This document shows positions 1 through 25,430 of a stretch of 56,799 nucleotides of DNA, one piece after another (positions within the stretch are counted from its first letter, which is position 1; each line of letters opens with the position of its first letter). The notes beneath the pieces were generated by a model, which did not search any database, had not been told where the DNA came from, and saw nothing but the letters and a program-made list of their open reading frames with translations. Position numbers and translations under genes: made by a program. Origin of the DNA: Thermoplasmata archaeon (GTDB lineage Archaea > Thermoplasmatota > Thermoplasmata > Lutacidiplasmatales > UBA184); the NCBI GenBank assembly GCA_030037815.1, contig JASHPZ010000017.1, forward strand, positions 1-56,799, in the 5' to 3' direction.

Positions 1-165
1 GACCTCGACGCGAACCTCGGCACCGACCGCGCGCTCGCGCGCCTGTCCGCGTTCGCCGACGCGTGGGAGTCGAACCCCAACCCGCGCGCCGCCCGAGGAG
101 AGCGCGCGGACGTCCGCGACGCGCTCCGCCGCGTCGAGGCGCGGCTCGGGCTGCCGCTGCTCTAG
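1..165 (+). CDS. C-terminal fragment of an unidentified protein (possibly a DALR-type tRNA synthetase end)
   Basis: The window opens inside a reading frame that gives 54 residues ending in TAG at 163-165. The visible part is helical and charged. A stretch reading DLDANLGTDRALARL resembles the start of the DALR anticodon-binding helix bundle of cysteinyl-tRNA synthetases (typical form DDLNTPRAL), but the fragment is short and ends earlier than those enzymes normally do. It is convergent with the thiolase and overlaps it by 4 nt. Reading frame is fairly sure from codon use; the family is a weak guess. Confidence 0.5.
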   Translation, partial: DLDANLGTDRALARLSAFADAWESNPNPRAARGERADVRDALRRVEARLGLPLL

Positions 166-25272: not shown

Positions 25273-25390
25273 CGCCGAGGGGGAGAATCTCCGCCGCGAC
25301 GGGACGGCCGTCCGCGGCGTTTGAACTCCCGAGGCGTATTCCGCCACGAGCTTTCCAGACTCGCGCCGTACCGGACTGAGCCACCTCGGC
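25273..25390 (-). tRNA. tRNA-Ser(GGA) with a T-loop intron
   Basis: The minus strand folds as a class II tRNA. The 7-bp acceptor GCCGAGG/CCTCGGC is perfect, with G73 as expected for serine. The D-arm has 3 bp, and the anticodon arm CGAGT-CTGGAAA-GCTCG gives anticodon GGA. The long variable arm is GGCG-GAATA-CGCC. The T-stem GGGAG/CTCCC is perfect, but the T-loop is interrupted by 33 nt (25287-25319). Removing it leaves TTCAAAT and an 85-nt tRNA, exactly the size expected. CCA is not encoded. Fold and size were checked by hand. Confidence 0.9.
25287..25319 (-). other. 33-nt intron in tRNA-Ser at position 59/60
   Basis: The insertion forms its own hairpin (CGCCGCG pairing with CGCGGCG). Next to the T-stem, 3-nt unpaired stretches flank a short helix formed by TTC of the T-loop and GAG near the intron's 3' end, resembling the bulge-helix-bulge motif cut by the archaeal splicing endonuclease. 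The exact cut sites are inferred from restoring a 7-nt T-loop. Confidence 0.8.
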
Positions 25391-25420: not shown

Positions 25421-25430
25421 CATAAGCTTA
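25421..25430 (-). promoter_or_regulatory. TATA box of tRNA-Ser gene
   Basis: The minus strand reads TAAGCTTATG 31-40 nt before the first tRNA base, consistent with a short 5' leader removed by RNase P. Confidence 0.5.

Follow-up and report, generated by a model that had tools for sequence, protein, structure and literature searches.

The interrupted tRNA-Ser(GGA) gene

The window, a stretch of 56,799 nucleotides from the MAG of a Thermoplasmata archaeon, carries on its reverse strand (positions 25273-25390) a tRNA-Ser(GGA) gene composed of 71 + 33 + 14 = 118 nt (Table 1). Nothing is out of the ordinary in its acceptor, anticodon, and variable arms. Within the T-arm, GGGAG-TTCAAA-(33 nt)-T-CTCCC, the insertion lies between positions 59 and 60 and not at the 37/38 site of canonical tRNA introns. 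Removal of the 33 nt would leave a tRNA of 85 nt, with a predicted T-arm (GGGAGTTCAAATCTCCC) that matches, letter for letter, that of uninterrupted orthologues in other families. The gene was missed both by ARAGORN and by the Rfam tRNA model at its gathering score (22.8 bits, below the cut-off of 29). UCC codons are common in this genome, at about 13 per 1000 by a crude count over ORFs, and tRNA-Ser(GGA) is therefore needed. A GGGCGT-like leader, common to most of the 28 aligned orthologues, directly precedes the gene on its 5' side.

Table 1 Coordinates of the tRNA genes, intron elements, and splicing enzymes discussed in the text. Numbers without prefix are window positions; C prefixes denote contigs of the source genome (G000) and L prefixes denote loci.
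Feature	Position	Strand	Description and evidence
tRNA-Ser(GGA) exon 1, nt 1-59, class II variable arm	25320..25390	(-)	71 nt, ends ...GGGAGTTCAAA; sequence, 27 congeneric orthologues, uninterrupted orthologues in other families
Anticodon GGA of tRNA-Ser	25354-25356	(-)	Sequence
T-loop intron at 59/60	25287..25319	(-)	33 nt, GC-rich hairpin; removal gives the T-arm of intronless orthologues; compensatory changes; fold z -6.2
Exon 2: nt 60, T-stem 3' strand, acceptor 3' strand, discriminator G	25273..25286	(-)	14 nt, TCTCCCCCTCGGCG; pairs with T-stem and acceptor 5' strands
Central helix, 5' strand (T-loop nt 54-57, TTCA)	25322..25325	(-)	Fixed register; base 57 covaries with its partner
Central helix, 3' strand (GGAG), intron-internal	25289..25292	(-)	Fixed register; covariation at base 57
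5' bulge AAC (A58, A59, first intron base)	25319..25321	(-)	Bulge-helix-bulge register; predicted cut after A59, from the mature tRNA of orthologues
3' bulge ATT	25286..25288	(-)	Bulge-helix-bulge register; predicted cut before T60, from the mature tRNA of orthologues
TATA-like box AAGCTTAT	25422..25429	(-)	32-39 nt upstream of the gene; same or near-same motif in all 28 aligned orthologues, at ~-35
Splicing endonuclease (EndA)	C91:3547-4608		354 aa; two tRNA_int_endo (PF01974) domains in a single chain
RtcB ligase	C47:499-1803		Present in source genome
D-loop intron loci	G000:C92:9125-9229; C87:37721-37825; C45:5118-5256; L410; L344	(+); (-); (-)	
tRNA-Gly(TCC) + tRNA-Ser(TGA) pairs	C66:12-259; C92:44075-44316		Two copies in source genome
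tRNA-Trp(CCA)	C69:325-484	(-)	Long anticodon-loop intron

Conservation among relatives

We searched for orthologues by BLAST in 61 related genomes, 36 of them congeneric. The full 118-nt gene, intron included, was found in 27 of the 36 congeneric genomes with 85-97% identity; in other families, no match extended past nt 71, where the 5' splice site is predicted, and some ended before it. Direct reading of the tRNA-Ser(GGA) loci of other families revealed uninterrupted T-arms (...GGGAGTTCAAATCTCCCCCTCGGCG) identical to the exact predicted product, and the predicted product equals these intronless orthologues (GTTCAAATCTCCC). Removal of the insertion thus restores a standard tRNA, as expected of a bulge-helix-bulge intron. 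In the intron hairpin, both partners of seven pairs have changed among 26 distinct orthologous T-arms, and the covariation score of the hairpin exceeded that of all shuffles (0/500). At base 57, one orthologue has an A57-U pair and another one a C facing A57. Orthologue comparison and covariation hence support the first-pass annotation, which had proposed a serine tRNA interrupted by 33 nt between positions 59 and 60, with a mature size of 85 nt, and had considered Thermoplasmatota as its possible source.

The same tRNA is interrupted in other ways elsewhere. The orthologues of five genomes (G037, G038, G039, G047, and G058) have canonical 37/38 introns. In other families of the same class, that of G046 (L282) combines a 37/38 intron with a long T-loop intron and that of G040 (L287) has a D-loop insertion.

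T-loop introns in other tRNA genes

The source genome is a MAG of 1.57 Mb in 94 contigs, with an estimated completeness of 89%. All contigs were scanned with an explicit cloverleaf search permitting T-loop insertions, using the reversed sequence as control. This kind of search, advocated in the first-pass annotation, recovered tRNA-Ser(GGA) together with ten further interrupted genes. The cloverleaf scan and the Rfam matches, of which the other sub-threshold ones mostly corresponded to tRNAs with an insertion at 59/60, together revealed insertions of 29-35 nt at this site in 11 genes for 10 isoacceptors: Ser(GGA), Ser(GCT), Ser(CGA), Arg(TCG), Arg(TCT), His(GTG), Glu(CTC), Ala(GGC), Gly(TCC) (two genes), and Lys(TTT). 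The reversed sequence gave three hits, with insertions of 48, 49, and 5 nt, none within 25-40 nt. Since ten other genes carry such insertions, the control has none of 25-40 nt, and the 118 nt are conserved in 27 congeners, the insertion in tRNA-Ser(GGA) is not a chance match.

In the 100% complete congeneric genome G029 we found 45 tRNA genes, of which 14 (31%) have T-loop introns: Glu(CTC), Gly(TCC), Arg(TCT), Arg(TCG), Asp, His, Ser(CGA), Ser(GCT), Ser(GGA), Gln(CTG), Ala(GGC), Asn, Lys(TTT), and Leu(TAG). The isoacceptors interrupted in the source genome are also interrupted in this one. A search for hidden Asp, Asn, Tyr, Gln, and Ile tRNAs in the source genome did not retrieve any; because G029 has tRNA genes for Asp, Asn, Gln(CTG), and Leu(TAG), all with T-loop introns, these four probably lie in unassembled parts of the source genome. 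tRNA-Ile(GAT) was not found among the 45 genes of G029 and may be hidden by further introns.

We also read T-loop introns at exactly 59/60 in genomes from 14 additional families of the class. A scan of 295 genomes across the phylum yielded strong matches throughout the family of the window (4-11 per genome) and one match each in many genomes of a second family (f8); matches in several families of another class are candidates. The position had initially been regarded as unusual for Thermoplasmatota. This holds with respect to the literature, where 59/60 is known mainly from Crenarchaeota and we found no Thermoplasmatota report, but the gene is not a single oddity, being one of a class-wide set. 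As a probe for intron transposition of the Thermoproteales type, we compared the introns of different isoacceptors with one another; their similarity was near background as compared with shuffles (mean z 0.8 and 0.3), in a test weakened by the fast divergence even of orthologous introns.

Other tRNA introns occur in these genomes. D-loop introns interrupt the initiator Met, Arg(GCG), and Lys(TTT) tRNA genes of the source genome, the last one in addition to its T-loop intron, and in G029 also those for Pro(TGG) and Leu(TAG). The source genome contains twice a tRNA-Gly(TCC) and tRNA-Ser(TGA) pair, either a duplicate or a strain variant; the exons of both pairs are nearly identical and their T-loop intron interiors differ, which indicates that intron interiors change fast. 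Its tRNA-Trp(CCA) has a long anticodon-loop intron, as is usual in archaea.

A shared bulge-helix-bulge architecture

We compared 51 T-loop introns: 11 from the source genome, 14 from G029, and 26 from other families, the last retrieved with a model (R1) of which the central helix is a part, which tilts their pairing counts in favor of the helix. The introns share a common register: going backwards from the T-stem, three bulge bases come first and then a four-base segment paired with T-loop nucleotides 54-57 (TTCR). In this fixed register nucleotides 54-56 are paired in 50 of the 51 introns, as compared with 17 at most when the register is slid by one position or more. Base 57 covaries with its partner: G57 faces C in 25/25 introns and A57 faces T or G, never C, in 26/26 (Fisher value 4e-15, computed without correction for relatedness). 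The helix was fully paired in every case read outside the order of the window. Within that order A57 mostly faces G, a mismatch present in 14 of the 25 introns read in the genus.

tRNA-Ser(GGA) shares this mismatch. It has two 3-nt bulges flanking a 4-nt helix (U54.G, U55-A, C56-G, and the A57.G mismatch), i.e., the bulge-helix-bulge motif in a relaxed form in which the fourth pair is A.G. This is the register already described from the sequence, with its short helix between 3-nt bulges and its A-G mismatch. When the Ser(GGA) arm is folded for minimum energy, its outer and inner stems form (z -6.2) but the central helix stays open, as an internal loop; in the corresponding fold of the Gly(TCC) arm, which has a G57-C pair, the helix is closed.

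Splicing enzymes

Both a splicing endonuclease and an RtcB ligase, the enzymes expected where bulge-helix-bulge introns are processed, are encoded in the source genome. PF01974 domains occur at only one locus, with no second gene, and all 26 relatives examined have exactly two of these domains in one frame at one locus each. Close relatives of this EndA come from Thermoplasmata MAGs, including acid-soil genomes and UBA184, the latter assigned to the order Lutacidiplasmatales (PMC9287336). The window probably belongs to this order as well. The predicted fold (pLDDT 91.6) resembles that of the Methanopyrus kandleri fusion protein 5X89 (TM 0.86) and of Archaeoglobus fulgidus EndA 2GJW (TM 0.76), and Tyr285, His300, and Lys331 are shared by all 19 proteins of an alignment. 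At YGSRVGDRLELSL, the site where the ASL of ARMAN-2 precedes a beta-strand, we found no CSL or ASL insertion relative to the M. jannaschii and A. fulgidus enzymes, nor among the relatives. The protein consequently lacks the loop, with its lysine near the active site, of broad-specificity (alpha beta)2 or epsilon2 endonucleases. An epsilon2-type enzyme had been considered because of the protein length and was ruled out by the presence of two PF01974 repeats only and by the best fold match to alpha'2-like structures. Layout, sequence, and modelled fold indicate an alpha'2-type enzyme, presumably a homodimer, and not the broad-specificity enzyme that the first-pass annotation had anticipated.

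Like the alpha'2 enzymes of A. fulgidus (2GJW) and Thermoplasma acidophilum (2OHC), and like the M. kandleri subunit fusion (5X89), this EndA is a two-repeat chain with the same fold and catalytic residues. It differs in being ~50 residues longer than A. fulgidus EndA and in its presumed substrates, which would include mismatched T-loop bulge-helix-bulges. The enzymes of T. acidophilum and A. fulgidus are listed as narrow (PMC6379350). This reported narrowness, together with the frequency of the A57.G mismatch in the genus, might suggest that splicing does occur but that the alpha'2 protein is not, or not alone, the enzyme responsible, or that it needs a helper at T-loop sites. We consider this improbable, although it is the most serious of the alternatives: no other PF01974 locus was found in the source genome or in any of the 26 relatives, and a narrow enzyme would suffice outside the order, where the T-loop helices are fully paired.

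A model for T-loop intron splicing

The evidence from sequence comparison argues strongly, with a probability of about nine in ten, that the tRNA-Ser(GGA) gene of the window is genuine and expressed, and that the insertion at position 59/60 of its T-loop is an archaeal bulge-helix-bulge intron. In the transcript, U54-U55-C56-R57 would pair with four bases near the 3' end of the intron, mostly (C/U/G)-G-A-A/G, located three bases before the T-stem; the resulting bulge-helix-bulge would link the T-stem to the intron hairpin. The alpha'2-type endonuclease, presumably as a homodimer, would then cut both bulges and RtcB would join the exons into an ordinary 85-nt class II tRNA, probably before the T-loop docks with the D-loop. 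TTCR does not vary among tRNAs, and a single intron design therefore suits every isoacceptor. This would account for the occupation of one site in so many tRNAs, though not for the way in which introns moved. Two observations count against this model: the fourth central pair of tRNA-Ser(GGA) is A57.G with the helix open in the minimum-energy fold, and alpha'2 enzymes have been described as restricted to canonical bulge-helix-bulges (PMC6379350, PMC12397907).

The mature tRNA might instead retain the insertion, as a lengthened T-arm tolerated by the ribosome, an idea that the strong hairpin continuing the T-arm could favor. This is very unlikely: the D-loop/T-loop elbow would be lost in about a third of all tRNAs, the bulge-helix-bulge register and the covariation at base 57 would have no purpose without cleavage, and relatives have an uninterrupted T-loop. 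Equally hard to sustain is a dead, unspliced copy replaced by an intact tRNA-Ser(GGA) elsewhere. A second, unassembled copy is conceivable from the source genome alone, an incomplete MAG. However, neither cloverleaf scans nor Rfam matches detected another tRNA-Ser(GGA) gene in this 89% complete assembly, and the 100% complete G029 has a single one, in line with the absence of an intact second copy on which the initial proposal depended. Furthermore, in the 27 congeners the exons are nearly invariant and the hairpin changes compensatory, and the upstream box is conserved. An assembly or binning artefact, which a fragmented MAG could invite, is already refuted by the recurrence of the gene in 27 separate genomes with independent substitutions.

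Comparison with known systems

Position 59/60 is among the listed non-canonical intron sites, found mainly in Crenarchaeota (PMC4090602), and the non-canonical-intron genes newly found with tRNAscan-SE 2.0 belong mostly to Crenarchaeota and Thaumarchaeota (PMC8450103). Non-canonical introns have been tied to (alpha beta)2, epsilon2, or loop-bearing alpha2 enzymes, whereas Euryarchaeota with alpha4 or alpha'2 enzymes have essentially 37/38 introns only (PMC4090602, PMC4033280, PMC6379350). In Euryarchaeota, mostly with alpha4/alpha2 enzymes, introns occur in <10% of tRNA genes, one each and at the canonical position (PMC4090602). Our literature search, which covered older primary papers incompletely, found no description of T-loop introns in Thermoplasmatota; databases annotated with tRNAscan-SE may list single cases.

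The introns described here resemble those of Thermoproteales and other Crenarchaeota (PMC4090602) in being short bulge-helix-bulge introns outside 37/38, several per genome, with 59/60 on record. However, the crenarchaeal introns occupy many positions and are cut by (alpha beta)2 enzymes with CSL, whereas in these Thermoplasmatota one site dominates and the enzyme is of the alpha'2 type without CSL or ASL. Korarchaeum cryptofilum likewise combines a homodimeric enzyme type with non-canonical introns; it has been called the only alpha2 archaeon with them, a property attributed to a loop that its enzyme shares with (alpha beta)2 endonucleases (PMC4033280) and that is absent from the EndA studied here. 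In the soil Asgard Atabeyarchaeia and Freyarchaeia, non-canonical introns are also unexpectedly common for uncultured archaea, but those lineages belong to another phylum and have introns in 92-95% of their tRNAs, often several per gene (PMC11291895).

Implications

The failure of a standard finder to detect tRNA-Ser(GGA), and the scores of several similar genes below the Rfam cut-off, account for tRNAs seemingly absent from the genomes of this group. As a tentative interpretation, which we put forward as possible with somewhat less than even confidence, Thermoplasmatota would possess a portable class of introns whose 3' end complements TTCR and fits site 59/60 of any tRNA, cut, even with the A57.G mismatch, by an alpha'2 endonuclease lacking CSL and ASL. 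A possible reason for the retention of such introns is that they interrupt the part of the T-arm in which integrases have their attachment site. If this interpretation is true, it would break the rule, drawn from the literature, by which non-canonical introns go with loop-bearing enzymes. In this class, alpha'2-type enzymes without either known loop coexist with T-loop introns in up to 31% of tRNA genes, many of which, in the order of the window, have a mismatched helix. The rule of enzyme-intron coevolution can thereby be tested directly, a single purified protein and a single precursor RNA being sufficient.
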